64,000 bases of DNA from Blautia massiliensis (ex Durand et al. 2017) (GTDB taxonomy: Bacteria; Bacillota; Clostridia; Lachnospirales; Lachnospiraceae), in NCBI RefSeq assembly GCF_001487165.1, contig NZ_LN913006.1, positions 1,573,651-1,637,650 of the forward strand, written 5' to 3'. The notes under the pieces are model-generated. The model was not told where the DNA came from, searched no databases, and saw only the letters and a list, made by a program, of their open reading frames with translations. This document shows, one piece after another, positions 35,988 through 53,828 of this stretch (within the stretch, counting starts at the first letter, position 1; each line of letters begins with the position of its first letter). The position numbers and the translations under genes are program-made.

Positions 35988-37568
35988 TCAGATATTCAGC
36001 AGATCGCTGAATACTTTCAGTGCTCCATCTGTCTCATGTGCAAGAACACGTTTTGCAAGAACTTTACCAAGCTGAACACCTTCCTGGTCAAAGCTGTTCA
36101 GGTTCCACAGGAATCCCTGGAACATTACTTTGTTTTCAAAGTGTGCAAGGAGTGCACCAAGGCTTGCAGGATTTACCTGATCACCAATGATGATGCTTGA
36201 CGGACGTCCACCTTCAAAGTTCTTATTGCTGTTTTCATCAGATTTACCACATGCAAATGCAACGATCTGAGCTGCAACGTTAGCGCAGAGTTTCTGCTGG
36301 CTTGTGCTGTCCTGGATCACTACATCTGTGCCCATCTGGTTATTTCTGTATCCGATGAACTGAAGCGGTACGATATCAGTTCCCTGATGAAGAAGCTGAT
36401 AGAAAGAATGCTGTCCGTTTGTTCCTGGTTCTCCAAAGATTACCGGTCCTGTTACATAATTTACAGGATCACCGAAACGGTTTACAGATTTTCCGTTAGA
36501 TTCCATATCAAGCTGCTGCAGATGTGCAGGGAAGCGGCTGAGTGCCTGTGAATATGGAAGAACTGCTGTGCTTGGATATCCAAGGATGTTTCTTTCATAT
36601 ACGCCGATCAGCGCATCCAGCATAGCCGGGTTCTGCATAACATCTTCGTTTTTAGCAAGTTTATCTTCTTCTGCTGCACCTTCAAGGAATTCTGCAAATA
36701 CTTCCGGTCCGAATGCCAGAGATAATACAGCACCGCCAACTGCAGATGTGGAAGAATAACGTCCACCGATATAATCATCCATGAAAAATGCTGCAAGATA
36801 ATCATCACTCTTAGCAAGTGGAGAAGTCTCACTTGTAACAGCGATCATATGCTTGGAAGCATCCAGTCCTGCATTTTTAAGAGCATCTTTTACGAAGGAT
36901 TCATTTGTCAGTGTTTCAAGAGTTGTACCTGATTTAGATACCAGTACGAAAATGGAATGTGCAACATCAATAGAATTCAGGACTGCTGCTGCATCATCAG
37001 GATCTACATTGCTGATGAATCTGGCTTCCATTTTAAATTTGTCATTTTTCTTTGCCCAGTTCTCAAGTGCAAGGTACATTGCACGCGGACCAAGGTCACT
37101 TCCGCCGATACCGATCTGAACAACAGTTGTGAATTTTTCTCCTGCTGCGTTTGTAATCTCACCTGCATGTACTTTATTGGCAAAGTCAGCAATCTTCTGC
37201 TGCTGTTCTACATAGAAAGCACGTTTGTCAACGCCGTCAGCTGTAACAGTATCACCAAGCTGGCCACGTGTCAGCTGATAAAGAACGAGACGTTTCTCAC
37301 CTGTATTGATCATTTCGCCATTGTAGAGAGCTGCGTATTTTTCAGTAAGCTGTGCTTCTTTTGCAAGCTTTTTGAGACCTTCAAGTACGTCGTCATCTAC
37401 CTGTTTTGCAGCATAGTTATATGCAAGACCAGCAGCCATCGGTACGCTGTATTTTTTAACACGTTCTGCACCATTTTCTCCGGTCATAGCTTCTACAAGG
37501 TTTACTTTCTTTACATTTGAAAGTTCTTTGAAAGATTCAAGAGTATCCAGGTTGTTCCAGGTACTCAT
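35988..37568 (-). CDS. pgi: Glucose-6-phosphate isomerase
   Basis: Interconverts glucose 6-phosphate and fructose 6-phosphate in glycolysis, 526 residues. Motifs: VVQIGIGGSDLGPRAMYLAL, SNVDPDDAAA, VLVSKSGTTLETLTNE, GGRYSSTSAVGG, FGEPGTNGQHSFYQLLHQGTDIVP with catalytic residues, and SLGALLAHFENKVMFQGFLWNLNSFDQEGVQLGK. The start ATG is preceded by AAGGAGGAATC. It is a core gene inside the IS-bracketed block, which argues that the block moved or was joined as chromosomal DNA. It has its own promoter and terminator. Confidence 0.97.
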   Translation of the reverse strand: MSTWNNLDTLESFKELSNVKKVNLVEAMTGENGAERVKKYSVPMAAGLAYNYAAKQVDDDVLEGLKKLAKEAQLTEKYAALYNGEMINTGEKRLVLYQLTRGQLGDTVTADGVDKRAFYVEQQQKIADFANKVHAGEITNAAGEKFTTVVQIGIGGSDLGPRAMYLALENWAKKNDKFKMEARFISNVDPDDAAAVLNSIDVAHSIFVLVSKSGTTLETLTNESFVKDALKNAGLDASKHMIAVTSETSPLAKSDDYLAAFFMDDYIGGRYSSTSAVGGAVLSLAFGPEVFAEFLEGAAEEDKLAKNEDVMQNPAMLDALIGVYERNILGYPSTAVLPYSQALSRFPAHLQQLDMESNGKSVNRFGDPVNYVTGPVIFGEPGTNGQHSFYQLLHQGTDIVPLQFIGYRNNQMGTDVVIQDSTSQQKLCANVAAQIVAFACGKSDENSNKNFEGGRPSSIIIGDQVNPASLGALLAHFENKVMFQGFLWNLNSFDQEGVQLGKVLAKRVLAHETDGALKVFSDLLNI

Positions 37569-37631
37569 AATAAGATTCCTCCTTAAAATTAGATGTTCCC
37601 GCTGTTTTCAGGATTCGTTTCAATCTCTTTG

Positions 37632-37660
37632 ATTATAATATCAAATGAAGGTAAATTCAA
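37632..37660 (-). promoter_or_regulatory. Promoter for pgi
   Basis: On the minus strand TTGAAT at 37660-37655 and TATAAT at 37637-37632 are spaced 17 bases, 64 bp before the pgi start. Confidence 0.7.
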
Positions 37661-37732
37661 GTCTGCAAACGGAGGTGTGGATATTCTCTCTATAAAATCA
37701 ACGCCCTTTTTCCCTCATCTGGATCGTACACC

Positions 37733-37796
37733 TTAAAAAAATTACAGAGAAAGCTCCTACAATGCCATTCAACACTATAGGAACTTTCTCTGTAAT
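37733..37796. terminator. Terminator after lacI
   Basis: ATTACAGAGAAAG with its continuation pairs with CTTTCTCTGTAAT in a long stem. T-tracts flank on both strands. Part of the direct repeat whose partner is at 51345. Confidence 0.85.
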
Positions 37797-37811
37797 TTTT
37801 TTTATTCTATT
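37749..37811. repeat. Direct repeat A at the left end of the sugar island
   Basis: About 64 bp shared, with an estimated dozen differences, with 51345-51408. Common blocks are CCTACAATGCC, AACTTTCTC/AGCTTTCTC and ATTCTATT. This copy contains the lacI stop and terminator. Confidence 0.75.
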
Positions 37812-38784
37812 CTGTCGTTTGCCCTTTCACCAGACAAACATCCTTCAAAATAATATCTTCATGTAATTTTGCACCATTTATTTTCTTTAATAATACATCT
37901 ACCAATGTATCTGCCAATTCTTTTATTGGCTGTGAAACATAAGTCATTGACGGATAACTTATCTTTGCAATCAGCGTTCCATCATATCCTACTGCTTTAA
38001 ATTCATCAGGAATACACATTCCCCTCTCACCTGCACATTTTAACGCATTCATAATGATCAAATCTTCCGAAAACATTGCATCCATTTCCGGATATTCATC
38101 AAAAAGTTTATTCATTTGCTGATGATATTCTTCTGTTCTTTGTTTTGTATTCCAGATATAATCGATACATTTTACACCATTTTTCTTCAATGTTTCTGAA
38201 AAAAACCTATGACGATTAATAGAAGGAGATTTATCTGTTACAACAGCCGTTACATTTAAAACGCATTTGCAGTCATTCTTTATAATTTCATTTGCAGCCA
38301 GCAAACCACCCTTATTATGGTCAGAATAGATGGTTGGAATCTCTTCCGCAACTCGATAATCAAGTGCCACAATAGGAAGATCCAGATTCTGATATTCGGA
38401 CTCTGCTAACATATGCGTTCCAAGAATAATACCATCTACCATATTTTCTCTCATCATTTTTATATAATCTCTTTCTTTATCTTCCGTATCTCCGGTATTA
38501 CATAAAAAAAGTTTATAATGATGTTTATAAAGTTTTTTTTCGATGTATTTCGTTATTTCCGCCCAAAAAGGATGCGAGCTGTCAGGCACGATCAGACTAA
38601 TATAATAAGATTTTTGTCTAAAAAGGTTTCTAGCAATCTGATTTGGGACATAATCAAGCTGATCAATTGCTTTATATACACTTTCGTATGTATCCTGTGA
38701 TATATACCCTTTATTATTCAATACTCTTGAAACAGTTGTTACAGAAACTCCAGCCAGTTTGGCCACATCTTTAATATTTGCCAT
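37807..38784 (-). CDS. LacI-family repressor of the sugar island
   Basis: DNA-binding regulator, 325 residues. The LacI helix-turn-helix and hinge are IKDVAKLAGVSVTTVSRVLNNKGYISQDTYESVYKAIDQLDYVPNQIARNL. The periplasmic-binding-like effector domain follows (YYISLIVPDSSHPFWAEI, DGIILGTHMLAESE, AVGYDGTLIAKISYPSMTYVSQP). The ligand is probably the imported sugar or a phosphorylated intermediate. It is the last gene of the cluster, 152 bp after the aldolase with its own promoter. A CCGG-centred palindrome near the operon promoter is its likely operator. Confidence 0.92.
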   Translation of the reverse strand: MANIKDVAKLAGVSVTTVSRVLNNKGYISQDTYESVYKAIDQLDYVPNQIARNLFRQKSYYISLIVPDSSHPFWAEITKYIEKKLYKHHYKLFLCNTGDTEDKERDYIKMMRENMVDGIILGTHMLAESEYQNLDLPIVALDYRVAEEIPTIYSDHNKGGLLAANEIIKNDCKCVLNVTAVVTDKSPSINRHRFFSETLKKNGVKCIDYIWNTKQRTEEYHQQMNKLFDEYPEMDAMFSEDLIIMNALKCAGERGMCIPDEFKAVGYDGTLIAKISYPSMTYVSQPIKELADTLVDVLLKKINGAKLHEDIILKDVCLVKGQTTE

Positions 38785-38824
38785 TCAATCCTCCGTGATT
38801 TTACAGATTCGCTTGTTTCTTTAT

Positions 38825-38854
38825 ATTATAACTATTTATTCATGTATTTCGCAA
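38825..38854 (-). promoter_or_regulatory. Promoter for lacI
   Basis: On the minus strand TTGCGA at 38854-38849 and TATAAT at 38830-38825 are spaced 18 bases, 41 bp before the lacI start. Confidence 0.55.
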
Positions 38855-38936
38855 GCCAAACTCTACTTTTGCACACAAAATCTTCAAAATGCTCTAGTCA
38901 ACCTCTTATTCTGTTTCTGCTCGGATCAATAATACC

Positions 38937-39866
38937 CTATTTTCCAACAATTTCTTTGAGAACACCCTGAACAACAGCTTTTACAAGTTCATCCTGGGAT
39001 GGCTGGTCTAATACACCTTTTCCATTGCTTGAGAAAAGTATCATCTTCTTCATGGTTTCCTGTTTAACAGCCTCAACTGCCGCCGGAATCAAATCAATGA
39101 TACCTTTATTCATACTTTCAAATTTGCGGAATTCAGCCTCTACTGCTGCCACATTGATATCCGTAAAAATATTGATCTTGCTTATACCTTCCTGAATCGC
39201 ACGTTTGAAGTCGTTGTCTGTAAGTCCGGAACCGCCATGCAGAACAAGCGGTACATCTACTGTATGAGCAATGGTATTAATTCTCTCAAAATCAAGCTTT
39301 GGAGGCAACTTATATGCCCCGTGGGCAGTTCCTACTGCAATTGCAAGAGCATCCACACCTGTTTTGTCAACAAAGTCTTTTGCCATCCTCGGATCTGTAT
39401 AGAAATCAGCCGGATTGATATGGGCGCTTCCCTCTGCAGAATCCGGGTTGTCACCTACATGTCCGAGTTCGCCCTCGATGGTTGCTCCATAAGAATGCGC
39501 GATGTCTGCCATTTCTTTAACTTTTCTTACATTATCTTCATAAGAATCTGTAGAGCAGTCATACATAATGGATGAGAATCCAAGTTCCAGAGCTTTCAGG
39601 CATGTTTCTTTCTTAAGGCCATGATCCAGATGAATAACTACCGGAACATTTGCTTTCTTAGCCATAGGAATAAGATAATAGGAAACCTCTTCCAGTGGTC
39701 CGTATGGAAGAAGTACTTCCGCAGTTCCCATGATAACCGGTGACTGAGAATTTTCTGCTGCTGCAATGATTCCTCGCGCCAGTTCCAGGTTTACCGCATT
39801 AAATAGTCCTACTGCATATTTTCCCTTTTTTGCCGGATAAAGCACATCATTCATATTAACTAACAT
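38937..39866 (-). CDS. Class II ketose-bisphosphate aldolase
   Basis: Zinc-dependent aldolase of the FbaA/GatY/KbaY family, 309 residues. Metal and substrate residues visible: HLDHG, EGELGHVG, VGTAHG with His, VLHGGSGL with His and the phosphate-binding NIFTDINVA. It cleaves a ketose 1-phosphate or 1,6-bisphosphate into dihydroxyacetone phosphate and an aldehyde. It is the last catabolic gene of the sugar operon, 12 bp after the PfkB gene. Generic motifs do not separate fructose- from tagatose-bisphosphate or other ketose specificity, so the name is left general. Confidence 0.93.
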   Translation of the reverse strand: MLVNMNDVLYPAKKGKYAVGLFNAVNLELARGIIAAAENSQSPVIMGTAEVLLPYGPLEEVSYYLIPMAKKANVPVVIHLDHGLKKETCLKALELGFSSIMYDCSTDSYEDNVRKVKEMADIAHSYGATIEGELGHVGDNPDSAEGSAHINPADFYTDPRMAKDFVDKTGVDALAIAVGTAHGAYKLPPKLDFERINTIAHTVDVPLVLHGGSGLTDNDFKRAIQEGISKINIFTDINVAAVEAEFRKFESMNKGIIDLIPAAVEAVKQETMKKMILFSSNGKGVLDQPSQDELVKAVVQGVLKEIVGK

Positions 39867-39878
39867 TTTTTCTACCTC

Positions 39879-41015
39879 TTACTTTCTTTTTTCCCAACCT
39901 GCGGCAATCTTCTTCTGTACTTCATCAAGTGGAATGATTCCACTGAGCGCATCATAGGTCTGTACACAGAGCGCTCCGGTCGCTGTTGCAAGATGAAGAG
40001 CATCCTCCCAGCTTTTGCCTTCCAGGATAGCACTTAAGAATGCAGCAATCGTCGTATCTCCGGCGCCTGTTCCAGATGCGACTTTGTCTTTTTCTACGAA
40101 ATAACTCTTCTCAAAAGCTTCTTTGACTGCCCATGTCTCCGCAATCTCTTCTCCGATTCCACCACCAATCTTCAGAAGCTGTTCCTTGGCTGCTGTGCGA
40201 AAATAGATGCCCGGTGTACCACATTTGATCAGGATAACTTTTGCACCATAGGAGAGAAGCTTATCTGCCAGTGGCCTGATATCTTTTTCAACATCAAGGA
40301 AGTTCGTTACATCTGAACCATTTGCCCTTTCGTTCCATTCATGATAACGGTCACGGTCCAGCATAATGCAGAGTTCTTCAACACTCGGCACAAAGAAATC
40401 AATGTACGGAATCACAGATTTCAGAACTTCGTTCCAATCCTGGGTACCTGCTTCTGTACTTTCTTCAAACATTGCCATATCAACAGAGATTGCAACTCCC
40501 TGTTCATGAACAGCCTTTAAAAGACGAACCAGTTCTTTGCCGCCATCAATATACATCTTCCGCATCAGCGATGGATAGCCAAAATGGAACAGATTTGCTC
40601 CTTTTACCTTTTCCAGATCGATATCATCCAGAGTAAATGTATCATTAGCACCTGAGCAGTGAAGGAAGATCCTGTCAATGCCTGCCGGTGCAAGGATTAC
40701 AGAATAAGAAGTTCCGACTCCTTTTCTTACAATCATGCTCTCCGGAGATGCACCATATTTTTCCAGTTCGTTGAGAACCATCTGACCAAATGCATCATCT
40801 CCGACCATTCCCATTAGTTCTACATCTGCGCCAAGACGTTTCATGCCAACACCTGTGTTGGATACCGATCCGCCAAGACTTACTTTGGCCGCATCCATTG
40901 CGATTAGTTGCCCCGGTCTGAAAAGGTCTTTGATGTTTTTTTCTTCCTTGCTCTTAAAAGCCGGTGTAATATCCAGACAGATATGTCCGGCTGCAATTGC
41001 TTTCTTTATGCTCAT
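39879..41015 (-). CDS. PfkB-family carbohydrate kinase
   Basis: Ribokinase-like sugar kinase, 378 residues. N-terminal IAAGHICLDITP, the GG-rich lid LGGSVSNTGVGMKRLGADVELMGMVGDDAFG, and the C-terminal catalytic signature VASGTGAGDTTIAAFLSAILEG with the base Asp. It is longer than ribokinase, with insertions at about 225-250 and 285-325 (RYHEWNERANGS; EIAETWAVKEAFEKSYF). It lies between the glycosidase and aldolase genes and would make the phosphorylated substrate or intermediate of the pathway. AGGATAG precedes the start. The sugar is unknown. Confidence 0.93.
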   Translation of the reverse strand: MSIKKAIAAGHICLDITPAFKSKEEKNIKDLFRPGQLIAMDAAKVSLGGSVSNTGVGMKRLGADVELMGMVGDDAFGQMVLNELEKYGASPESMIVRKGVGTSYSVILAPAGIDRIFLHCSGANDTFTLDDIDLEKVKGANLFHFGYPSLMRKMYIDGGKELVRLLKAVHEQGVAISVDMAMFEESTEAGTQDWNEVLKSVIPYIDFFVPSVEELCIMLDRDRYHEWNERANGSDVTNFLDVEKDIRPLADKLLSYGAKVILIKCGTPGIYFRTAAKEQLLKIGGGIGEEIAETWAVKEAFEKSYFVEKDKVASGTGAGDTTIAAFLSAILEGKSWEDALHLATATGALCVQTYDALSGIIPLDEVQKKIAAGWEKRK

Positions 41016-41051
41016 GTTCTATCCTCACAGTTATTTCTTACCATACCGATT

Positions 41052-43817
41052 TTATTCAGTTTCATAAGCATATATATCCACCTTATGCTCTCCTGTCATT
41101 TCCTTGCCAAAGGAACCTTCCACCAGATTTCCATCCATTTTTACTGTATAGCTGTCACCATGCCCATGTATCTCAAATACAAATTTTGCATTCTGATATG
41201 GAACAGAATCAAGTACTGCTCCCTCAAATTCATCCAAAATACATGGATGTATCTGAATTCCCTGTTCACTATAACGTATTCCAAAAATTCCATTAACAAT
41301 AAATCCAATAAAACCTGCCGCATGCCATGGCAGGTGCGGCCATCTCCACGCTCTTCCTGTATCAACATCCATTACTTCATGAAAAGATTTATTCAGGAGC
41401 ACATTTCTCACCTGTGCATAAATAAGTTTTTTCAGAAACTCTTTATTTCCACTTTCACCAGCTGCCTCTGATAACCCAAGCGTCCATGATACCCAGCATG
41501 CTCTCCAGAAATGGTTTTTTTCTTTGCGGAACGGATACCAGTTAATTCCAAACTCAGAAAATGCCTCTGGATTACTTTCGATTGTCTTCAAAAACAGATT
41601 TCTCTGTCTCTCAGTTGCAATACCAAATCGTGGCCACAAAACCATTTCTGCCCCAGTCGTCTCCCACCAGCCTTTTTCGTATGCTTCACTTCCTATTGGT
41701 CCACTTGTAAAGCATTCTTTTTCTTCATTCCAGTATTTTTCCTTTATGGATGCAAGCATTTCCTTCGAACGACTTTCCCAGAACTTAATTCTCTCCGGAT
41801 AGCATCCTGTCACCTCACATATTCTGGCGACATCCTGATACATCAGGGCAAATGCAATTTCTGTTCCAAGACAGTATCCGCCATTCTCCGGTTCTTCAAA
41901 AGCATCCTGCGCAAGACACATGGTTGCATGAACCAGCTGCATTTCTTCATCATAACGTGCATCCGCTTCTTCTGCATATTTTATAATTCCAGGTAACATT
42001 TCATACAAAAGCTGGATATCTCCAGTTGTTATATAATGATCCCATGCTGCAATCGCCGGCATGGCAGCACAGTCAACACCATTATTAAATCCATGTTCAG
42101 AAATATAGGATAACGACTCCCTGGCTTCATCCGGTGCAAGTAGATTCTGACATCGAAATGCTGCATGGCAGGTATCTCTTACCCAACTTCCAAAACCTTC
42201 TCCTTCTCTTTGAAAAACAGCCGCATTCATCAGACCTTCTTGTCCTGGCAAGGCATACTTTTTATTTCTGTTCTGACACATAATATCTGTTGCAAGCGAA
42301 AATGCTGCATTTATGACGTTATGCTCTGTATGTAATTTCGGGTAGGCTGAATCTTCCGGTGCGTCCCAACGCTCGGTTCGGTTCTGGATTCTTGTCATGT
42401 CTCCCCACGGAGTATCTCTCCAGCAGAATTCTTCCACCGCGCGTACAGGTGATAAAACTATTTTTCCACCACGCAGTGCCCATGCTGCAGGTTCTCCATA
42501 AATACGATCTTCTACACATTTCTCATATATTGTGTAAGATTCAGATTTAAACAACGGCTGTCCTTTTTCTTCCTGTTCGATCAGCCTTCTGTTTTCTTCT
42601 TCATATCTCGTAGATCTTAAACCCCATATATTCAGACAAATGACAGAGGCTGTTTTTCCATTCGTATGGATTTCAAAATACGGGTCCGCATTATATTGCA
42701 GATAAAATGATGGATTATTGATATTTTCCACCTGCTCACTTCGAATCTTATAATCTTCTTTTTTCGGTCCATTATCCTGTACTATGAGCATTGCATTCTT
42801 TCTGTCTGCATATAATTCCTGAATTGCCATGTCCCTGTAGAAATGCAGATACAGTCTTCCTTTTTCCGTTGGAATTTTCATTTTATATCCCTGACAGTTC
42901 AGTGTCTGATCTAATGCCTTCCAGACCCACTTCACTCCACACAGCTCAAACTCAATTTCCGGTTCCTGTCCGACAAACATCTCCAGTTCTACCTCACAGG
43001 CCTTTGTCTGAATATCAGATAAAATATTTTCAGGTGCCAGAAGTCGGACTTCCGGCCATACGTCTGGTCCCTGACGAAATCTCATGAGAAATTCAAACTT
43101 TTTATCAATATGCTCATTATGCCACTGTCTAACCCACACTCGCAGATTATCCATCTGTGCAGCTGGCTTTATCTGTTCTCCTGAAAAAACGGATGGAATA
43201 CTGATTGCATTAGATGATGCAACACCTTCACACGTTTTTTTCGCAGTCTGACCTAGAATCCAGATTTTTCCATCTTCTTCAAATTCTATTTGTTTTTCGA
43301 CATCTCCAATCCATTTATCTGATTTCCGGCAGTTGATTTCAATTTCTTCTAACTCATTCTCCTCGGATTTCCAGTGCAGCAGATCCTTGCTTACAAGTCT
43401 CATAGCTGTTTGATTTTCTTCATTTCCTGTCAGTGAACATGGATCGGTTACACAATCTAAAACCCACTGTTCTCCTGCTTTTTTTACACTGTTCAGTTCC
43501 CGGATACATCCGGTTGGCGGCATATAATGAATGACAGACTTAGACAGTTCTCTTCTTCTCTGTTTTTCCGGATCATCAGAAAGTTCTATTGCATTGATCC
43601 ATCTGCTCGCCGGACCTTCTGCCTGAATATCGTCCCCGAAAAAATCTTTCAGGGGATATGCCATCCAATAGTCCACTCTTGTCTTAGATACTTTCATCTG
43701 AATAGTTTCTTTTTTTCCAGTACTGTCTGAAATAGTTATAATACATGGATCTGCATTCTCTTCATAAGGAATGCGCAACCAGTTTTCTTCGTGCTTTTTC
43801 AGAAAATGCTTTTTCAT
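41052..43817 (-). CDS. Cytoplasmic six-hairpin glycosidase, family uncertain
   Basis: Large glycosidase-like protein, 921 residues. No signal peptide or membrane segment is seen, so it is cytoplasmic. The N-terminal ~500 residues look beta-rich. The C-terminal ~400 form an (alpha/alpha)6 domain: GSWVRDTCHAAFRCQNLL, CAAMPAIAAWDHYITTGD, WWETTGAEMVLWPRFGI, and ending HLPWHAAGFIGFIVNGIFGIRY then a short beta tail. GH63/GH78/GH37-like relations are possible; the Asp of WVRD is a candidate general acid. It is probably used on an imported glycoside. It follows the activase gene by 34 bp. I could not assign a CAZy family. Confidence 0.72.
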   Translation of the reverse strand: MKKHFLKKHEENWLRIPYEENADPCIITISDSTGKKETIQMKVSKTRVDYWMAYPLKDFFGDDIQAEGPASRWINAIELSDDPEKQRRRELSKSVIHYMPPTGCIRELNSVKKAGEQWVLDCVTDPCSLTGNEENQTAMRLVSKDLLHWKSEENELEEIEINCRKSDKWIGDVEKQIEFEEDGKIWILGQTAKKTCEGVASSNAISIPSVFSGEQIKPAAQMDNLRVWVRQWHNEHIDKKFEFLMRFRQGPDVWPEVRLLAPENILSDIQTKACEVELEMFVGQEPEIEFELCGVKWVWKALDQTLNCQGYKMKIPTEKGRLYLHFYRDMAIQELYADRKNAMLIVQDNGPKKEDYKIRSEQVENINNPSFYLQYNADPYFEIHTNGKTASVICLNIWGLRSTRYEEENRRLIEQEEKGQPLFKSESYTIYEKCVEDRIYGEPAAWALRGGKIVLSPVRAVEEFCWRDTPWGDMTRIQNRTERWDAPEDSAYPKLHTEHNVINAAFSLATDIMCQNRNKKYALPGQEGLMNAAVFQREGEGFGSWVRDTCHAAFRCQNLLAPDEARESLSYISEHGFNNGVDCAAMPAIAAWDHYITTGDIQLLYEMLPGIIKYAEEADARYDEEMQLVHATMCLAQDAFEEPENGGYCLGTEIAFALMYQDVARICEVTGCYPERIKFWESRSKEMLASIKEKYWNEEKECFTSGPIGSEAYEKGWWETTGAEMVLWPRFGIATERQRNLFLKTIESNPEAFSEFGINWYPFRKEKNHFWRACWVSWTLGLSEAAGESGNKEFLKKLIYAQVRNVLLNKSFHEVMDVDTGRAWRWPHLPWHAAGFIGFIVNGIFGIRYSEQGIQIHPCILDEFEGAVLDSVPYQNAKFVFEIHGHGDSYTVKMDGNLVEGSFGKEMTGEHKVDIYAYETE

Positions 43818-43851
43818 TTCTGTCTCTGTTCCTTTCTGTTAGCAATCTTCT

Positions 43852-44748
43852 TTATTCCACTACGTCAATCTTTTTACTTCTGTAAACTTCTTTCAACAGC
43901 TCCAGCTGTTTTTCATCAGGTGCTTCAAACATCTGCTGATTCACTCCGACATGTTTTGCTTTTTCAACTCCAAAATCATGATACGGCAAAAATTCCACAC
44001 TCTTGATGTTTCTTCCAAGAGCTGCAAAAAAATCTGCTGTTGCAACAGCATTTTCTATCTCATCATTGATTCCTTTTATAATTGGAAGCCTGATCATGAT
44101 CGGTCTGTAATTCACCAGTTTTTTCAGATTCTCTTTGATCAGGGTATTTTCTGTTCCTGTATATTCTTTATGTTTTTCATTGTCAAACATCTTAAAATCT
44201 ACAAGAAACAGATCTGCACATTCTGTCATTCTGTGTATCACTTTCCAAGGAAAAGCAAGTGCTGTTTCAAAAGCAACTGAAATATGCTCTTTCTGAAGTC
44301 TGTTGCACAAATCATATAGAATCTCTGCCTGCATCATTGGTTCTCCACCGGAAAAAGTAACACCACCTTCTGAAATTTCATAGAGTCTTCTGTCTCTGAG
44401 CAAAAGTTCCGATAATTCTTCAGCAGAATAATAACTTCCTACGATTTCCAATGCTTCTGTGCAGCAAATTTCCACACACTTTCCACACACAGTACAAAGA
44501 GTTCTTTCATAAATATGCTGCCCGTTTTGTATCTGTTGTGCTCCTGAGGGACAGATTTCAATACACTGACCACAGCCAATACATTTATTTTCCGTATAAC
44601 TCAGTATACTTTCCTTTTTCCATGTCTCCGGGTTGTGACACCATTTGCACCGCAAATTACATCCCTGTAAAAATACAGTTGTCCGTATTCCCGGTCCGTC
44701 ATGCAGAGAAAAGTTCTGTATCTGACTTACCAGTAATTTTTGCTTCAT
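43852..44748 (-). CDS. Glycyl radical enzyme activase
   Basis: Radical SAM activating enzyme, 298 residues. The SAM cluster is CNLRCKWC with Cys30, Cys34 and Cys37. An inserted two-cluster ferredoxin domain (CIGCGQCIEICP and CTVCGKCVEICC, about 55-95) marks the dehydratase-type activase class rather than the PFL activase. GGVTFSGGEPMMQAE and LPYHDFGVEKAKHVG also fit. It lies 8 bp after the glycyl radical enzyme gene and would install the glycyl radical on it. Only one glycyl radical enzyme gene is in the window, so the pairing is nearly certain. Confidence 0.95.
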   Translation of the reverse strand: MKQKLLVSQIQNFSLHDGPGIRTTVFLQGCNLRCKWCHNPETWKKESILSYTENKCIGCGQCIEICPSGAQQIQNGQHIYERTLCTVCGKCVEICCTEALEIVGSYYSAEELSELLLRDRRLYEISEGGVTFSGGEPMMQAEILYDLCNRLQKEHISVAFETALAFPWKVIHRMTECADLFLVDFKMFDNEKHKEYTGTENTLIKENLKKLVNYRPIMIRLPIIKGINDEIENAVATADFFAALGRNIKSVEFLPYHDFGVEKAKHVGVNQQMFEAPDEKQLELLKEVYRSKKIDVVE

Positions 44749-44756
44749 TTTACCGC

Positions 44757-46994
44757 TTACCTCTGTGTACGCTGAATTACCTCATTCTGCATTTCCGCAG
44801 TCAATGTATGGAAATATGCACTGTATCCACACACTCTTACTACAATATTTTTATGTGTTTCCGGATTTTTCTGTGCCTCTAAAAGTGCATTCCTGCTGAT
44901 AACATTAAAATCCATAATGCTTCCGCCATTTTCACAGAAGGCCCGCATCACACTTGCAAACAATGACGGCTGCGGAGTTTTATACATCAGTGGAATGTCC
45001 ATATAAATAACTGCCCCACCCGGATATTTCGTGTAATCCATTGTTTTTATTGCATCAAGTAATGCTGCAATATTGATGTTTTCTGTACTTTCACTTGGGT
45101 TAACGCCTCGTGAGAGAGCACTTTCACTTTTTCGTCCATCGGCCGTTGCAATCGTTACATTTTTAAACCAGTTATAAGAATAAAAAGCAAATAATGACGG
45201 CTCAAATTTTCCGCCTCTGTAATTTGCCTGTCCTCCAAGACATTCAGCCAGATCATCCATAACCTTTTTTCCAAATTCTGTAGCATCTTTATCCTTGCAG
45301 AATTTTGGGACTTTATGAAGCAAATATTGTCGAAGGATCTCATCATCTCTGAAGTCTTCTTTCATCGCTTTAAGCAGGTGACCAAATGTCGTAATCTTAT
45401 CTTCATATACTGCCTTCTTTATCGCATATAACGAATCAATTACTGTCCCTGCACCCGCAGCAGCAAAATTATCTGTATTATAGACAGCACCGCCTTCTGA
45501 GACATCTTTTGCCGTCTCAGTACATGATGGCATAGTTGCAGAAAAGAACAACGACGGATTTATTATTTTCCACCATGAACCATATTCGTTATATTTTTTC
45601 ACAAAGAAATTCAGTTCATTTCTATAATTTTCAATTACAATATGATAGAATTCTTCAAAATCGCTCGCATTCGCAGCTGGAATAAATTTAAATCCATCCC
45701 TTTTAAATACGTCATTCCAGTACTCTGGATATAAGGATCCATTTAACATCTGCACAAGATTAAGATAGGTATATGCTCTGCTGTTGACTTCATTAGAAAG
45801 ACAGATTTCCTGGCAGCCACCTGCGACATAAAGTCGACAGTCTTCCAGACTTTTTCCCTGCTTCTGATTTGCTGGAATTATCACATCATCATTAAAGACA
45901 GACAGCACATTCAGACCCATTCCTGCCAATTCACCAACCTGCATCAGAAATTCATCCGGATGCTTTGCCGATATTCTCACCTGTAGTTTCGGATTTGCAA
46001 AATGATATTTTTTATAACTGTTTATGATCATCCTGCTTATGTCATTATAAACAATATTGCCATTTTTATCACATCCGCCTATAATAATATCTGCATTTGT
46101 GCCCCCTGGCAGGTCTGCTTCAAGATCCCATCTTGCATCTGTCATTGATACAAAACAGTCAACCAGTTCCTGCGCCTCATCCGGCGTTATTCGATTATTT
46201 TTCAAATCTCTTTCATAATAACTAATCAGGATTCTGTCCAAATGGCCAATCACAGCAAATCCAAGACCATCTAACGCATTGCACATCTCACGCGTAAACC
46301 AGATTGCACACATTGCTTCATAAAATGTTTCTGCCGGTTCAGATGGAATTCGGCGTGCCGTAACAGCAATCATTTTAAGTGCCTTTACATGTTCCTCATC
46401 GTGTTCTGTTTTCAGCATTTCCTCCGCTTTTTCTGCAAATCTTTCAGAAATTTTTTGCAGACTTCGGCATACATCGACCATACATTTTAAAAAATCCTGC
46501 TGATGATCTGTAAGATTTTTCTCTTCCAGACGCATCATTGCATGTCTGATTATTCCTGATAGACCATATTTCAACACAGTTTCACAATTTGCATAGTGAT
46601 GCGCCGCATCCATAAACTGTGGTCCGTTCATGACACCATATTTTCCGTAGTATCCACTCCATTCTCCATATTCATCTACAAAATCTGGGTATTGCTTCAT
46701 TAGCCAACATCCAATGCCTGGCTGTGGCGGGAACGATGCCGTAACACTGTTCTGTTCTCTTCCTGTATCAATTTCTGCATAAAACGGACTGGATGGAAAA
46801 AGAATCACTTCAGCATCCCTGGCTGCAATTCTGTAGATCCATGTTTTTTTCTGAAAAGAGCTTGCCTTTGGATTTTCTTTCTGGAGGCGGTCCAGTTCTT
46901 CTTCCATTCTGGAAACATCGGTTGGATAATTAGAATATACCTCTTTGGTCTCTTTAAAATATTCTTCTTTATTGAATCGATAACCTGCCATCAT
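44757..46994 (-). CDS. Glycyl radical enzyme, unassigned class
   Basis: PFL-like glycyl radical enzyme, 745 residues. The C-terminal radical loop is RVCGYSAYF with Gly723. The thiyl Cys394 lies in VAGGCQEIC, with Glu396 as the likely base; this GGCQE replaces the GCVEP of glycerol, choline and isethionate enzymes. NDDVIIPANQKQGKSLEDCR matches the dehydratase-type loop before the Cys. SRGVNPSESTENI is also shared with other classes in position. It is shorter than most dehydratases (780-850). The start has GGAGGAACGC. The substrate is inferred from context as a sugar or polyol derivative, with C-O cleavage or dehydration likely. Confident as family, not as reaction. Confidence 0.93.
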   Translation of the reverse strand: MMAGYRFNKEEYFKETKEVYSNYPTDVSRMEEELDRLQKENPKASSFQKKTWIYRIAARDAEVILFPSSPFYAEIDTGREQNSVTASFPPQPGIGCWLMKQYPDFVDEYGEWSGYYGKYGVMNGPQFMDAAHHYANCETVLKYGLSGIIRHAMMRLEEKNLTDHQQDFLKCMVDVCRSLQKISERFAEKAEEMLKTEHDEEHVKALKMIAVTARRIPSEPAETFYEAMCAIWFTREMCNALDGLGFAVIGHLDRILISYYERDLKNNRITPDEAQELVDCFVSMTDARWDLEADLPGGTNADIIIGGCDKNGNIVYNDISRMIINSYKKYHFANPKLQVRISAKHPDEFLMQVGELAGMGLNVLSVFNDDVIIPANQKQGKSLEDCRLYVAGGCQEICLSNEVNSRAYTYLNLVQMLNGSLYPEYWNDVFKRDGFKFIPAANASDFEEFYHIVIENYRNELNFFVKKYNEYGSWWKIINPSLFFSATMPSCTETAKDVSEGGAVYNTDNFAAAGAGTVIDSLYAIKKAVYEDKITTFGHLLKAMKEDFRDDEILRQYLLHKVPKFCKDKDATEFGKKVMDDLAECLGGQANYRGGKFEPSLFAFYSYNWFKNVTIATADGRKSESALSRGVNPSESTENINIAALLDAIKTMDYTKYPGGAVIYMDIPLMYKTPQPSLFASVMRAFCENGGSIMDFNVISRNALLEAQKNPETHKNIVVRVCGYSAYFHTLTAEMQNEVIQRTQR

Positions 46995-47013
46995 GCGTTC
47001 CTCCTGAGTTGCC

Positions 47014-48039
47014 TTAAAAATTTAAAACTACCTTCAATGCAGTTCTGTCTTTTACTGCCTGAAATCCTTTTTCATAATCATCTATTGAAAATCTATGTGT
47101 CACAAATAAATCGATGTCTATTTTCCCATCCATAATCGCATCACAAACCGGCTTATGTACTTCTGCTTCTACCTCAGGCACCGGCCACTGCACATACTGA
47201 ATATTGAAATTCCTGAGTTCCGGTAATGGTACATTCAGATTTTCTCCGCTTTTTAAGCCATATACAGCAATTGTCCCTGTCTCTTTAATATAGTCCAGAC
47301 ACTGCGTGATTGTCTGATTTGATCCAATCGTATCTATACAGATATCGGACTTTCTGTCAAACAGATCAGAAGCTTTTTTCTTTTCTTCTTCGTCTTTGTT
47401 AAGAAATGTACCTGCTGCTCCCAGTTTTTCTGCTGTTTCCAGCTTGTCTCTGTGATTTCCCAGGACATAAATCTCCTGAATTCCCATCAGTTTTGCACAG
47501 CTTAGAAAAGCAAGCGCAACCGGTCCGTCTCCGAGTATGACCATCTTCTTTTTATCTTCAACGCCGATTCTTTTTAATGCACTGTATGTTTCCTTTAAAG
47601 TTATCAGCATAGAAGCAGCTTCTGCCTGCATTCCTTCCGGGCACACCTGCTGTGTAATTCCAAGATTAATATCTTTTACATCGGCCTGGTCTGCCATGGC
47701 TGCTTTATAATCTTTTACAATTCCATATTCAGCAAATCCGCCCCAAGCGCTGGAAAATTTCTCATTATCCGGTTGTCCTGCCCTGACTACAAGATCTCCC
47801 ACTTTAAAAGAAGTAACTTTTTTGCCAATTTTAACAACTCTTCCTGCATCTTCGTGTCCTAAAACCGCCGGATATCTCGTTACTTCTCTGACTTTTCCTC
47901 CAATAACTCCCAGATCCGTTCCGTTACAGATCATACAGCATTCATTTTTTACCAGTGCTTCATACTCTCCGATCTCCGGAATCGGAAGCTTTTCTTCCAG
48001 GTACAGTTTATTGTCTTCTGTTACCACTAAACCTTTCAT
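47014..48039 (-). CDS. Zinc-type alcohol/sugar dehydrogenase (MDR family)
   Basis: Medium-chain dehydrogenase, 341 residues. Catalytic zinc ligands are Cys38 in MICNGTDLG, His62 and Glu63 in GHEDAG. The Rossmann motif is VILGDGPVALAFLS, and the nucleotide-binding region continues LGNHRDKLETAEKLGAAG. The structural-zinc loop with four closely spaced Cys is absent after the catalytic site, unlike many alcohol dehydrogenases. It follows the permease genes and precedes the glycyl radical enzyme by 19 bp. It may oxidise an imported polyol or reduce an aldehyde or ketone product. Direction and substrate are unknown. Confidence 0.92.
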   Translation of the reverse strand: MKGLVVTEDNKLYLEEKLPIPEIGEYEALVKNECCMICNGTDLGVIGGKVREVTRYPAVLGHEDAGRVVKIGKKVTSFKVGDLVVRAGQPDNEKFSSAWGGFAEYGIVKDYKAAMADQADVKDINLGITQQVCPEGMQAEAASMLITLKETYSALKRIGVEDKKKMVILGDGPVALAFLSCAKLMGIQEIYVLGNHRDKLETAEKLGAAGTFLNKDEEEKKKASDLFDRKSDICIDTIGSNQTITQCLDYIKETGTIAVYGLKSGENLNVPLPELRNFNIQYVQWPVPEVEAEVHKPVCDAIMDGKIDIDLFVTHRFSIDDYEKGFQAVKDRTALKVVLNF

Positions 48040-48056
48040 AACTGATCTCCTTTTTA

Positions 48057-48905
48057 CTATTTAATGCCGGTTGCAGCTACAGACTGCATAAAATATTTCT
48101 GGAATGCAAAAAACAGAATCAGAACAGGAATCATTCCAATCACGATAACACCCATGATCAGATTCCATGTCGGCTGTTTGATTACAGATGCGCCACAGAT
48201 TGAACTTATTCCCAATGTTACTGTCCATTTGCCTTCACTTCTGACGGATAACAACATCCAGATCAGATTATTCCACGCAGAAATAAATGTATAAATTCCT
48301 AATGTTGTCATACTTGATTTCGTATTTGGCAGTAAGATCTTCCAGAATATCTGGAAATGATTTGCTCCATCAATTTTTGCTGCTTCATCCAGTTGCTTCG
48401 GTATTCCCATATAAAACTGGCGCATAAGAAATGTTCCAAACGGAATGGACCATGCTACCTGCGGAAGTATCATCCCCATATATGTATCCAGCATATTGAG
48501 ATTTCTACACAGATTATAAGACGGAATCAGTCTTACAGTAATCGGAATCATCATCGTTGACAAATAAAGAATAAAAACAATATTTCTGCCTTTGAACTCA
48601 AGTCTGGTAAATACATATGCAGCTAAACTACAGAGGAAAATAGTAAGTGCGGTCACTGCTATCGCAACAATAAATGAATTAAAAAAGCACTTGGGAAAAT
48701 CCAGCAGCTGCCATGCTTTTGTAAAATTCTCCCATTGCGCTGCTTTCGGCAAAATTCTTCCAACACTTGTTGCAAGATCTGTATCCGATTTCAATGCAGT
48801 AGATAATATATAAACAAATGGAAACAGCATGATTACTACAAATGCAGCTATAATTACCCAGATTAAGCTGTCTCCCAGAATTTTATTTCTTAATTTTCTG
48901 GTCAT
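48057..48905 (-). CDS. Carbohydrate ABC transporter permease, MalG/MsmG type
   Basis: Inner-membrane permease, 282 residues with about six helices. The EAA loop is MGIPKQLDEAAKIDGANHFQIFWKILLPNTKSS, where it meets the ATPase. The start at 48905 has AAGGGAGAAG upstream; an alternative start at 48935 would overlap the previous gene by 14 bases. The MalG-type second permease commonly follows the MalF-type, as here. No ATP-binding subunit is encoded in the operon, so a shared MsmX/UgpC-type ATPase must be used. Confidence 0.94.
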   Translation of the reverse strand: MTRKLRNKILGDSLIWVIIAAFVVIMLFPFVYILSTALKSDTDLATSVGRILPKAAQWENFTKAWQLLDFPKCFFNSFIVAIAVTALTIFLCSLAAYVFTRLEFKGRNIVFILYLSTMMIPITVRLIPSYNLCRNLNMLDTYMGMILPQVAWSIPFGTFLMRQFYMGIPKQLDEAAKIDGANHFQIFWKILLPNTKSSMTTLGIYTFISAWNNLIWMLLSVRSEGKWTVTLGISSICGASVIKQPTWNLIMGVIVIGMIPVLILFFAFQKYFMQSVAATGIK

Positions 48906-48921
48906 AATCTCTTCTCCCTTC

Positions 48922-49821
48922 TCAATCTTTGTCACTTGTCAACTTTAACTGTACAACCGAAATAATAATCGAAAGAATAAAGATAAATACTGCCATTGTA
49001 CAGGAATATCCCATTTTCAAAGATGAGAAAGCAGTCTTATATAATGTCAGCCCAGTTAAATACGTACTTGTTCCAGGTCCACCATTTGTCATCGTATAAA
49101 CAAGATCAAATTCCTGGAACGTACCGATTACACACATGAGAATAATATATGTAAGAACTGGTTTCAGCTGCGGCAATGTAATATAAACAAATTTATGCCA
49201 TGCATTTGCACCGTCCAGATCTGCCGCTTCAAAAAATTCCTGCGAAATTTCCAGACGTCCTGCAACAACCATAACCATGTAATATCCTGCCCATCTCCAG
49301 ATTGTTACGATTGCCATAGAACCCAGTGCAATCTTGCCATCTGTCAGCCAGCCAATTTTTTCGAATCCCAATACACTCAGGAAGTTATTGATAACACCAT
49401 AATTCGTTCCCATCAGATATCTCCATGCAACACCGGTTGCAACCAGAGAAAGTGCACATGGTAAAAAGAAACTGCCTCTGATAAATTTCGAAATAACTTC
49501 ACTTTTATTATTTGCAAACAACACAAGTTCACACATAATGATAGAAAAAATGACAATTGGCGGAACATTCATCAGGATATACTTGATCGTGTTGCCCAGA
49601 CTTGTCCACCAGAGTTTATCTTTCAGCAGATTTTGATAATTCTCTAATCCTGTAAATATCTTACCTTTTAATGGATTCCAGTCATAAAATGACATGTGGA
49701 TGGAATCTACCATTGGCCAAAATACAAACAATCCCAGCAAAATCAGGGACGGCAACAGAAACAAAACAGCAATCCGCCAGTCTCCTTTTTTACGTTTTAC
49801 TACTGTTTTTGCGTTACTCAC
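48922..49821 (-). CDS. Carbohydrate ABC transporter permease, MalF/MsmF type
   Basis: Inner-membrane permease, 299 residues, about six helices. The first helix is FLLPSLILLGLFVFWPMVDS, and the EAA loop is FFEAADLDGANAWHKFVYITLPQLKP. It starts with ATG after GGAGGGATTCATG-type sequence, 68 bp from the binding-protein gene. It pairs with the following permease to form the sugar channel. Family and role are firm; specificity is not. Confidence 0.94.
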   Translation of the reverse strand: MSNAKTVVKRKKGDWRIAVLFLLPSLILLGLFVFWPMVDSIHMSFYDWNPLKGKIFTGLENYQNLLKDKLWWTSLGNTIKYILMNVPPIVIFSIIMCELVLFANNKSEVISKFIRGSFFLPCALSLVATGVAWRYLMGTNYGVINNFLSVLGFEKIGWLTDGKIALGSMAIVTIWRWAGYYMVMVVAGRLEISQEFFEAADLDGANAWHKFVYITLPQLKPVLTYIILMCVIGTFQEFDLVYTMTNGGPGTSTYLTGLTLYKTAFSSLKMGYSCTMAVFIFILSIIISVVQLKLTSDKD

Positions 49822-49889
49822 ATGAATCCCTCCTAGTTAAATCCAAGGGATGATACAGAGTATTTTCCATATCATCCTTTTATTCTTAG

Positions 49890-51161
49890 TTACTGAGCAA
49901 GTAAACCATTTAACTGATCTGCCATGCTATCCAGCGTACTCTTGATATCAGCATCATTATGCCAGATTTCATCAAAATACTGTCCAATGATCGTCTGCTG
50001 GTCTGCAAATGTTTCTGTAAGGTCAATATATCCTGCATATTTCAGTCCTGTATTAAACAATTTCATATCATGGTTTTCGTCAAACATAGATACGGAAAGA
50101 TCTGCCTGAGACTTTCTTACTGCAATCTGTGGAGATGTATTATCTTCAAGATATAATGCAAGCCCCTCTTCGCTGGTCAGATATTTAATAAACTTTTCTG
50201 CTGCTTCCGGGTTTTCACAGCTGCTTGAAATGCCAATACCATTCAGGAAAAGTACTTCTGCCTGTGTACCATCATTTGCACGTGGCGCATTCATTGCTTT
50301 CCAGTTTACATCGTCCTGAAGATATGTTGAATTCCAGAGAGCCACACGACACATAGCAATCTGACCCGCATTAAATTTTGTAATCAGTGCATCATAACCG
50401 TCTCCCAGTTTTTCTATTGCCGGCACATAACCTTCATCTACAAGACTCTTGACATATTCGAAAGCCGCAACGGTTTCATCTGAATTCCATCCACAGGTTT
50501 CATCATCATTCAAGTAGCTTCCACCAGCTTCTGTAATCCATGGATACATAGTATCGATTGCGGAAGACAGATCATTGATAATTGTCGGATATTCGATTCC
50601 AAGTTCATCTTTGTGTTCCATTAATGTTTTACATGCATCTGTAAACTCATCCCATGTAAATCCATCTTCCGGAACTTCAATTCCACACTTGTCAAACATA
50701 TCGACGTTGTAAACCCATCCATAATTTCCTCCGTCCAATGGAAGTGAATACCAGTCACCATCATATGTACAATAGTTTTCTGCAGCATCCCAGAAATCAT
50801 CAAATTTATATTCTGTATCTGCTTTCAGTGCATCTACATCGAATTTCTGTAATGCCCCGGCATTTGCAAGAATCTGTGTAGTTCCTGTATTACAGTTGAT
50901 AAGATCCGGAAGGTCACCCGCTGTAGCTTCTGTCAAAATTTTAGTTGCATAATCTGATACTTCTTCAAAATTAATTTCAATATCCGGATTTTCCTTTTCA
51001 AAAGCTTCGACAACTTTCTGATATTTATCATAGCTGTCATAGCTCTGCCAGTTTAATGTAATTTTATCCCCGGAATCTCCCTTGGCAGCCATTACATCCA
51101 CCCCACTACCAACTGGTACCATACATGCTGTTAATGCAAGTGCAATTACCTTTTTCTTCAT
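49890..51161 (-). CDS. Sugar-binding lipoprotein of the ABC transporter
   Basis: Extracellular solute-binding protein family 1, 423 residues. The signal begins MKKKVIALALTAC with a lipobox LTAC and Cys13 as the probable lipid-anchored residue. The mature part has the usual sugar-binder features: LNWQSYDSYDKYQKVVEAFEKENP, SLPLDGGNYGWVYN, KFNAGQIAMCRVALWNST, PEAAEKFIKYLTSEEG. The start at 51161 follows GGGAGAAC; an upstream in-frame start adds 11 polar residues before the signal and is unlikely. It is the first gene of the operon and is controlled by the promoter and operator at 51198-51256. Confidence 0.94.
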   Translation of the reverse strand: MKKKVIALALTACMVPVGSGVDVMAAKGDSGDKITLNWQSYDSYDKYQKVVEAFEKENPDIEINFEEVSDYATKILTEATAGDLPDLINCNTGTTQILANAGALQKFDVDALKADTEYKFDDFWDAAENYCTYDGDWYSLPLDGGNYGWVYNVDMFDKCGIEVPEDGFTWDEFTDACKTLMEHKDELGIEYPTIINDLSSAIDTMYPWITEAGGSYLNDDETCGWNSDETVAAFEYVKSLVDEGYVPAIEKLGDGYDALITKFNAGQIAMCRVALWNSTYLQDDVNWKAMNAPRANDGTQAEVLFLNGIGISSSCENPEAAEKFIKYLTSEEGLALYLEDNTSPQIAVRKSQADLSVSMFDENHDMKLFNTGLKYAGYIDLTETFADQQTIIGQYFDEIWHNDADIKSTLDSMADQLNGLLAQ

Positions 51162-51197
51162 TTTGTTCTCCCTTCGTATTGTGACTTTTTCCATATG

Positions 51198-51210
51198 TCA
51201 ACCGGTTTCA
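51198..51210 (-). promoter_or_regulatory. Probable LacI-family operator
   Basis: AACCGGTT (51200-51207) is a perfect palindrome with a central CG, the hallmark of LacI-family sites. It lies about 20 bases downstream of the -10 box, so bound repressor would block transcription. The cognate lacI gene closes the same cluster. Confidence 0.65.
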
Positions 51211-51227
51211 TATTGTTTGTTTTTTTT

Positions 51228-51256
51228 AATATATCATTTAATTTTTATTTTGTAAA
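51228..51256 (-). promoter_or_regulatory. Promoter of the sugar operon
   Basis: On the minus strand TTTACA at 51256-51251 and TATATT at 51233-51228 are spaced 17 bases, in very AT-rich DNA upstream of the binding-protein gene. Confidence 0.7.
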
Positions 51257-51344
51257 TATGCTTTTTTCATTTCATGCATTATGTATGGTTTTATCAAATT
51301 ATTTTTGTATATTATTCACAATTTCGCGGTTTTTAAAGAATATA

Positions 51345-51408
51345 AAAAGCCCCTACAATGCCTTTCGACACCATAGGAGCTTTCTCAGCAATTTCTCTTT
51401 ATTCTATT
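51345..51408. repeat. Direct repeat B at the right end of the sugar island
   Basis: Partner of the repeat at 37749-37811, estimated about 80 percent identical in the same orientation. It forms an imperfect hairpin (AGCCCCTACAATG/CACCATAGGAGCT) that may terminate the GNAT gene. Confidence 0.7.
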
Positions 51409-51458
51409 TTTTACATTGATTGCCATTATGATTTTCCTTTTTATTTCGTAAGCTAAAA

Positions 51459-51983
51459 TCAGTTCAGAATACTATCCATCTCATGCCAGGCTTCTCCGCC
51501 CCACACAGAATCGCCGATCCCATGGTCTTTAAAGCCAAATTTCTTATACATCTCAACCTTATCCGGGAGGCAGGTCAGGATCAGCTTCTTTCTTCCCCTG
51601 GCGCGCTCTCTTTCCTTATATTGTTCCATCAGTTTTCTTGCCAGCCCCTGGTGTTGGTACTCTGGGAGCACATCCAGCCCAAGAAGCATAATGTTTACGC
51701 CCTCCGGATCATGTAGATTCGCATCTGTAAAAAAGTCATCTGTCAGATGTTCTCTGTCTGTTGCAAGTCCGTTAAGAAAACCTGCAATCTTGCCTGTCTC
51801 CCGATCCACAACAACCAGAAAAAGATCCGATGCTTTTTTTATTCGTGACTCCATATGTTCATAAGTACACGCTTCATTTGGCGGAAAACAGATGCTTTCA
51901 ATCTCTGCAGCCTGTTCAATTTCATCCTTATGAATGTTTCTGAATTCATATTTTTCATGTATTACTTTGCTGTTCTGTTTCAT
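51459..51983 (-). CDS. GNAT-family N-acetyltransferase
   Basis: Acetyl-CoA-dependent acetyltransferase, 174 residues. The GNAT core has EYEFRNI...AAEIESICFPPNEACTYE, the strand MLLGLDVLPEYQHQGLARKLMEQY with the acetyl-CoA loop (QHQGLA), and GFKDHGIGDSVWGG near the end. The acceptor is not predictable from sequence; similarity to aralkylamine-type acetyltransferases is possible. The start at 51983 follows AGGAGAGGG. It lies between the sugar operon and the XRE gene, with repeat B just past its stop. Confidence 0.88.
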   Translation of the reverse strand: MKQNSKVIHEKYEFRNIHKDEIEQAAEIESICFPPNEACTYEHMESRIKKASDLFLVVVDRETGKIAGFLNGLATDREHLTDDFFTDANLHDPEGVNIMLLGLDVLPEYQHQGLARKLMEQYKERERARGRKKLILTCLPDKVEMYKKFGFKDHGIGDSVWGGEAWHEMDSILN

Positions 51984-52077
51984 CAATCCCTCTCCTGCTC
52001 ATGACAGGTCAATACTGTTATGCTGATCACCTGCTACTATTTTAATATCTGTTTTACATTGTAACATATTTTGTCCC

Positions 52078-52197: not shown

Positions 52198-52208
52198 AGT
52201 TTCTTCAT

Positions 52209-53808: not shown

Positions 53809-53828
53809 TAGTTTTTCACCAGATTTAT

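Follow-up and report, generated by a model that had tools for sequence, protein, structure and literature searches.

The 64,000-nucleotide stretch of the Blautia massiliensis genome analysed here (the window, which sits within a 3.5-Mb contig) harbors a ten-gene operon organized around a glycyl radical enzyme (GRE) that, as judged by sequence, belongs to a deep clade with no characterised member among the solved and named classes compared. GRE classes have in many cases brought a separate anaerobic reaction to light, and here a whole clade without an assigned substrate in gut Lachnospiraceae is tied, within the family, to a fixed import and redox cassette. Pathways relying on GRE eliminases are known already; the clade, the cassette and a chimeric glycosidase-like protein encoded beside them have no assignment in the literature and databases searched. 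The ten consecutive open reading frames (ORFs), all on the minus strand, span 37807..51194 of the window and encode, from 5' to 3', a sugar-binding protein, two ATP-binding cassette (ABC) permeases, a zinc dehydrogenase (ADH), the GRE, its activase, a 921-aa protein, a PfkB kinase, a class II aldolase and a LacI regulator. This gene set and order, as derived from the ORF list and from Pfam and NCBIfam scans, bear out those given in an initial annotation of this DNA, whose proposal of a carbohydrate-type pathway around the GRE is also supported, the enzyme falling in none of the classes compared.

The GRE (44757..46994, minus strand, 745 aa) was assigned through Pfam and its catalytic residues, and its best 120 of 402 matches provided the relatives, 86 of which (all but P0005, P0033, P0057, P0082 and P0091-P0120) compose the alignment A1. 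Cys394 (thiyl), Glu396 of the CxE motif, Gly723 (radical) and His132 are kept in all 86 aligned clade members; by these residues, the fold and the adjacent activase, the enzyme is of the eliminase type of the superfamily. Around this core lies a signature composed of Lys336 (86/86), Arg254 (85/86), Ala407 and Glu402 (84/86 each), Gln395 (83/86) and Arg406 (82/86), which differs from glycerol dehydratase (GD), propanediol dehydratase (PD), HypD, CutC, 9rco, YbiW and PflD, except that HypD shares the Glu at 402.

Concerning the pocket, at GD H281, S282 and D447, which we take to be substrate-contact positions, the window GRE carries F246, A247 and A407 and thus lacks the residues of a glycerol or propanediol dehydratase. 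Throughout the clade, H281 is replaced by Phe, Val or Ile in 76/86 members and D447 by Ala in 84/86; at S282, 55 members have Ala and 31 have Ser, and at GD Tyr339, 73 have Asn and 13 have Ser (n=86). The HypD residues Asp278, Ser334 and Asp339 are also lost, with F246, a gap and T299 in their place; common with HypD are the eliminase core and Tyr450, equivalent to Y410 and a Tyr in 83/86 members. The loop bearing GD Phe333 or HypD Ser334, described as substrate-facing in the part of PMC7077986 available to us, is a gap in 86/86. Hence, compared with the B12-independent glycerol and propanediol dehydratases (1r8w, 5i2a, 9rco), glycerol contacts are mostly replaced and the Phe333 loop is missing. 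Since the catalytic core is intact, the pocket residues are the clade's own and the loop is absent, the enzyme is expected to be an eliminase with a different, possibly larger, substrate, whose pocket is possibly enlarged.

Trees of 65 and 44 rows were built, the smaller having dropped 21 named rows, long branches among them. The unrooted 44-row tree, which takes in GD, PD, 9rco (whose entry title names a propanediol dehydratase), HypD, CutC, YbiW, PflD and seven unnamed GREs, separates the clade with support 100/100 and places HypD as the next branch (96/91). The clade lies outside the GD/PD group. Forcing the clade and YbiW/PflD, to which the window GRE shows 21-22% identity, into one group costs 33.8 log units and is rejected (p-AU 0.0006). 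Classes outside this tree (2f3o, IslA, HpsG, HplG, N-methyl-hydroxyproline dehydratases, decarboxylases and succinate synthases) were compared through NCBIfam and phmmer scores and structure alignments only. Assignment as HypD is rejected by a score of 305 bits against the NCBIfam cut-off of 1100, as is assignment as HpsG/HpfG sulfopropanediol dehydratase, where the scores are 281 and 238 bits and the cut-offs 1000. Both tree and scores show no clustering with a characterised non-sugar class (HypD, CutC, diol dehydratases); such clustering would have spoken against the initial carbohydrate assignment.

Structural comparison, in which a second-look aligner re-aligned Foldseek's top 1000 chains, yields solved GREs at ranks 1 to 37 with 19-24% identity, none listed above 24%. 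The nearest solved fold is 2f3o, a GRE from Archaeoglobus fulgidus, which is of no help in naming the substrate because its entry title gives no function; by sequence, glycerol and diol dehydratases come closest among the named solved relatives, together with HypD. Among the literature titles and abstract openings searched, which largely do not cover subscription journals, none names this clade.

The genomic neighbourhood was analyzed in eight loci of the same family (L024-L031, corresponding to six genomes or lineages, with L026/L027 and L028/L029 as near-duplicate pairs), viewing about 9 kb on each side of the GRE, less in L026. All eight combine two permeases, ADH, GRE and activase, and the binding protein is matched in six. 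In the window the permeases occupy 48922..49821 and 48057..48935 on the minus strand (both Pfam BPD_transp_1, overlapping by 14 bases), followed by the ADH (47014..48039, minus strand, a zinc-type medium-chain dehydrogenase by Pfam and residue alignment); the activase, a radical-SAM protein (43852..44748, minus strand; Pfam, and NCBIfam TIGR02494 with 325 bits against a cut-off of 174), shows the motif CNLRCKWC and two CxxCxxC motifs for ferredoxin-type clusters, as read from its sequence. The remaining partners vary. A kinase is matched near the GRE in two of the eight loci (PfkB in L025, 23% identity, and L031, 51%, a partial ORF), an aldolase only in L025 (68% identity), and the family of the 921-aa protein in L024 and L025; other partners are GH32-type proteins in L025, L026 and L031 (L027 being near-identical to L026) and, in place of a glycoside hydrolase (GH), alpha/beta hydrolases in L028 and L029, with no GH among the seven scanned neighbours of the GRE in L030. 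Because permeases, ADH, GRE and activase are present in 8/8 while kinase, aldolase and glycosidase vary, radical cleavage and redox should be considered the constant step.

A second line of evidence comes from the longest contigs of relatives, whose equal size suggests that a GRE and its partner lie on one contig. There are 21 such cases for GRE and ADH relatives (shifted control mean 0.23, maximum 3) and 7 for GRE and glycosidase relatives (control 0.037, maximum 1), far above the controls, and chance clustering was rejected. The count used 88 GRE rows (without P0001, P0005 and P0091-P0120), 99 ADH rows from the 120 listed and 22 GH rows from 61, after removal of near-self rows and fragments.

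The GRE has a narrow distribution, with carriers, own genome counted if sampled, in 7/397 genomes of the family and 2/64 Blautia species, in 8/391 genomes of the class using a wider profile and, at a strict cut-off in 383 genomes of the phylum, in the own genome solely. On the other hand it has often been sequenced, as its 90% cluster comprises 1483 member sequences, and it is 99.9-100% identical in Blautia sp. XA-2221. By the names of P0059, P0060 and P0074, among the 120 best matches, the clade also reaches Latescibacteria and Armatimonadota. Best matches in plasmid and phage collections all stay below 60% identity (20 plasmid matches listed, 24.9-28.5%), and viral contigs gave two short C-terminal matches.

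Regarding the enzymes that accompany the GRE, C38, H62, E63 and E150 are invariant in the eight operon ADHs, all of which lack an Asp or Glu directly after the presumed strand beta-2; read with the rules for sorbitol dehydrogenases and NADP-dependent ADHs, the former fit a zinc enzyme and the latter suggests NADP(H) as cofactor. The kinase (39879..41015, minus strand; Pfam PfkB, GAGD motif) and the aldolase (38937..39866, minus strand; Pfam PF01116, 295 bits) have YdjH and YdjI, respectively, as their nearest solved relatives. In a comparison with ten E. coli proteins, the ADH is nearest to YdjJ (28%), the kinase to YdjH (24%) and the aldolase to YdjI (39%), with GatY close behind (37%). RefSeq names YdjH octuluronate kinase and YdjI octuluronate-1-phosphate aldolase, and these relatives fit a conversion of a ketose into ketose-1-phosphate and then into dihydroxyacetone phosphate (DHAP) and an aldehyde. 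The E. coli ydjHIJ cluster resembles the window operon in its PfkB, class II aldolase and zinc dehydrogenase (24-39% identity, the best of the few compared), but its annotation includes neither a GRE nor a glycosidase nor an ABC transporter.

The 921-aa protein (41052..43817, minus strand) was previously taken for a cytoplasmic glycosidase. By fold comparison this glycosidase-like protein is a chimera of two folds rather than a plain enzyme: residues ~89-404 resemble a shortened GH32 fold and lack the NDPN motif, and residues ~440-918 form an (alpha/alpha)6 barrel. For the latter, several families (GH94/GH65/GH100-type) reach similar Z values, at identities of 9-16%. The window protein scores under the cut-offs of Pfam and NCBIfam, and its relatives match PF17389/PF22422. 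Unlike GH32 fructosidases and GH94/GH65/GH100-type enzymes, both folds are here fused in one chain, and the [ND]DPN motif is found in none of the 25 aligned proteins. A profile of the family retrieved two matches in 392 genomes of the order, own genome included, and none in 361 genomes of the class, a search run with no positive control and thus uninformative by itself. A relative of the 921-aa protein also occurs in another Blautia genome (G819, L042 5138-14299), together with two DUF2961 (GH172) genes, an ABC transporter and LacI, with no GRE; this set reads as a related furanoside-type operon.

The sequence and structure comparisons establish the gene families, catalytic residues, clade, conserved core, shared operator-like site, chimera fold and near-identical block; the reaction steps, their order, the class of substrate and LacI binding, as set out below, are our inference. 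The ABC transporter would import a small glycoside for anaerobic breakdown, which the 921-aa protein would cut inside the cell. Its polyol-like or anhydro-polyol half, still unphosphorylated, would be dehydrated or ring-opened by the GRE to yield a deoxy aldehyde or ketone, by way of the Gly723 radical generating the Cys394 thiyl, hydrogen abstraction and loss of a vicinal C-O group assisted by Glu396 and His132. The NADP(H)-type dehydrogenase would then reduce this product or, alternatively, prepare the substrate. Where PfkB and the class II aldolase are present, the kinase would phosphorylate the remaining half of the glycoside, in all likelihood a ketohexose such as fructose, at C1, and the aldolase would split the resulting ketose-1-phosphate into DHAP and glyceraldehyde. 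We give an even chance to the GRE substrate being such a polyol-like or anhydro-polyol half freed from an imported glycoside.

Several observations weigh against this proposal. Lys336, found in every clade member, and Arg406, found in nearly all, could point to a substrate with a negative charge (phosphate or carboxylate), contrary to the unphosphorylated half proposed above, and Phe246, Phe602 and Phe604 could narrow the pocket instead of widening it, offsetting the lost loop. The column of the GH32 nucleophile is Asp in 3/25 and Glu in 3/25 of the aligned proteins, with Glu107 in the window protein. Given no GH among the seven neighbours scanned in L030 and alpha/beta hydrolases in L028 and L029, a glycoside is not the substrate everywhere. 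In other families of the class, the eight GRE loci examined (L020, L032-L038) show no ADH or ABC match, several of their contigs being of 3.6-10 kb, and an activase is matched beside the GRE in one of them. Finally, the ADH relatives P0190 (69%) and P0198 (65%) have no matching GRE in the contig-coincidence comparison, and the ADH may therefore have other uses.

A variant that we consider unlikely is that the GRE acts directly on the sugar or the intact glycoside, with radical elimination of a ring or glycosidic C-O bond and no phosphorylation. If true, it would mean that radical sugar cleavage evolved apart from YbiW/PflD, is fed by a GH32-(alpha/alpha)6 chimera and has spread horizontally among gut species.

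Less credible, and in our view distinctly improbable, is the order put forward in the initial annotation, in which PfkB phosphorylates a released anhydrohexitol or sugar, the GRE cleaves it as YbiW and PflD do, and aldolase and ADH finish the pathway. The same kinds of enzymes are indeed found within one operon, and the clade-wide Lys336 and Arg406 could bind a phosphate. YbiW and PflD are also GRE eliminases with CxE and His, accompanied by an aldolase and a reductase in a reported sugar-type pathway. However, DHAP-forming class II aldolases need the C1 oxygen, so a 1-deoxyketose, having lost it, would be ill-suited to the aldolase found here. That the YbiW and PflD pathways are fed by the phosphotransferase system (PTS) and give such a 1-deoxyketose is stated in the part consulted of PMC12441222, a secondary source, and the chemistry agrees with the entry titles of 8id7 and 8id0. 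In E. coli, fsaA, coding for an FSA-type aldolase, adjoins ybiW, and frw PTS genes adjoin pflD, whereas the window operon is ABC-fed and has a zinc ADH, a chimeric GH, PfkB and a class II aldolase. The analogy thus fails for kinship, given the p-AU obtained above, for transport and for aldolase type. The sequence of kinase, GRE, aldolase and reduction fares no better, with kinase matches in 2/8 and aldolase matches in 1/8 related loci against 8/8 for the ADH.

We also regard as improbable, a little more so, a scheme resembling sulfoglycolysis, in which glycosidase, kinase and aldolase would produce DHAP and an X-lactaldehyde, the ADH would reduce the latter to an X-propanediol and the GRE would dehydrate or cleave this diol. 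A glycosidase, a PfkB kinase, an aldolase and a reductase recur in the E. coli yih cluster, and HpsG and HpfG are, by their NCBIfam family names, GREs acting on a sulfo-diol. On the contrary, the scores for these two families are far from their cut-offs, the operon has no isomerase, and kinase and aldolase matches are missing near most related GREs.

Even less is to be said for a glycerol or 1,2-propanediol dehydratase, for which the glycosidase would free glycerol from a glycosyl-glycerol, the GRE convert it to 3-hydroxypropanal and the ADH reduce this to 1,3-propanediol. The GH, GRE and ADH of L024 would suffice for it, and glycerol and diol dehydratases are, with HypD, the closest named solved relatives by sequence. 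Nevertheless, the replacement of H281, D447 and Y339, the Ala/Ser distribution at S282, the absence of the Phe333 loop and the position of the clade outside the GD/PD group make it very improbable. We hardly credit an ordinary gut sugar operon, with glycosidase, kinase and aldolase handling the sugar and the GRE as a formate/pyruvate-type accessory, even if Pfam labels the GRE PFL-like.

Control by LacI, as anticipated in the initial annotation, is supported by an operator-like site common to related loci, although what follows is drawn from sequence comparison. The site, TGAAACCGGTTGAC (51197..51210, minus strand), lies directly upstream of the binding-protein ORF, and in cross-locus comparison the binding-protein genes of L025, L026 and L027 likewise have AACCGGTTGACA upstream. 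Up to 400 bases upstream of that gene, AACCGGTT is present in 5/11 loci (window, L043, L025, L026 and L027) and in 5/7 of the loci whose LacI is at least 47% identical; L031 has none, and L030 shows by eye a degenerate form of the core, GAAAACGATTGACATA. The exact 15-mer occurs in the own genome only here; allowing up to 2 mismatches gives 10 sites, and the reversed control gives 4. As 0.36 such matches are expected by chance in the window, a single match is not rare by itself, and the weight of the site comes from its conservation across genera. A perfect 20-bp palindrome was rejected as the operator, having 2 mismatches in L026/L027 and 5 in L025 and not occurring in the window; hence only the shorter common core is claimed as operator-like. 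As long as the sugar is absent, LacI (37807..38784, minus strand; Pfam LacI, 74.2 bits) would repress the operon at AACCGGTTGAC. With the operator-like site, LacI, the binding protein and so compact an operon, the substrate is open to direct testing. In L030, a single ORF beside the GRE operon (4611-6917) fuses a LacI-type regulator to a sugar-binding-protein domain.

The operon lies inside a near-identical block (35882..52798), recognized by comparison with G808, a genome of another Blautia species, that also comprises pgi and small upstream genes. Of its 16.9 kb, 6.8 kb are 98.4% and 10.1 kb are 99.7% identical, whereas in the one flank compared (54400-64000, 9.6 kb) G808 matches at only 65-78%, in ten scattered pieces. 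This difference indicates that the block was probably transferred horizontally between Blautia species in recent times, and such transfer suggests a useful trait. Contamination is unlikely, since both copies are inside long contigs (3.5 Mb and 382 kb). Two identical elements of 1014 bp with TATAGCA..TGCTATA ends, which we take to belong to the IS630 family, are found by sequence comparison at 34302..35315 and 52797..53810, both on the plus strand. The left end of the second is the block edge, and on the other side the block ends about 570 bases short of the first. With both copies in direct orientation, the layout is composite-transposon-like. The pgi gene (35988-37568), named glucose-6-phosphate isomerase by reading the protein, is carried beside the operon, and an apparently incomplete ORF of 172 aa (35311-35829), read as ATPase-like, overlaps the end of the first element.

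As for the remaining features, the binding protein (49890..51194, minus strand; Pfam SBP_bac_1, 137.7 bits) is called with 434 aa and probably starts at Met12, which opens a signal-peptide-like stretch. The first nine genes are spaced by -14 to +68 bases; 152 bases precede lacI, which could have its own promoter, apart from a single ten-gene transcript. A hairpin scan locates a terminator-like hairpin of 20 pairs after lacI (37745..37792, minus strand) and another, similar to the first, upstream of the operon (51344..51385, minus strand), close to the limits 37733 and 51408 first assigned to the operon. Terminator-like sites number 17 in the region, several of them versions of a single hairpin, and 9.7 +/- 3.1 in shuffled sequence; promoter-like sites show no enrichment (42, compared with 45.4 +/- 7.2). 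The hairpin segments 37735-37803 and 51346-51408 are alike (82-87% between the window and G808 copies), which would fit a duplication or membership of a repeat family.

P0190 and P0198, the ADH relatives mentioned above, are named from Faecalicatena and Mediterraneibacter, where their context might reveal a version of the pathway free of GRE. Two loci from other families, L034 (1118-7393) and L037 (1671-8938), contain two GRE genes close together with no ADH or ABC matches; both GREs of L034 fall in a deeper sister group, and L037 has one there and one outside the clade.

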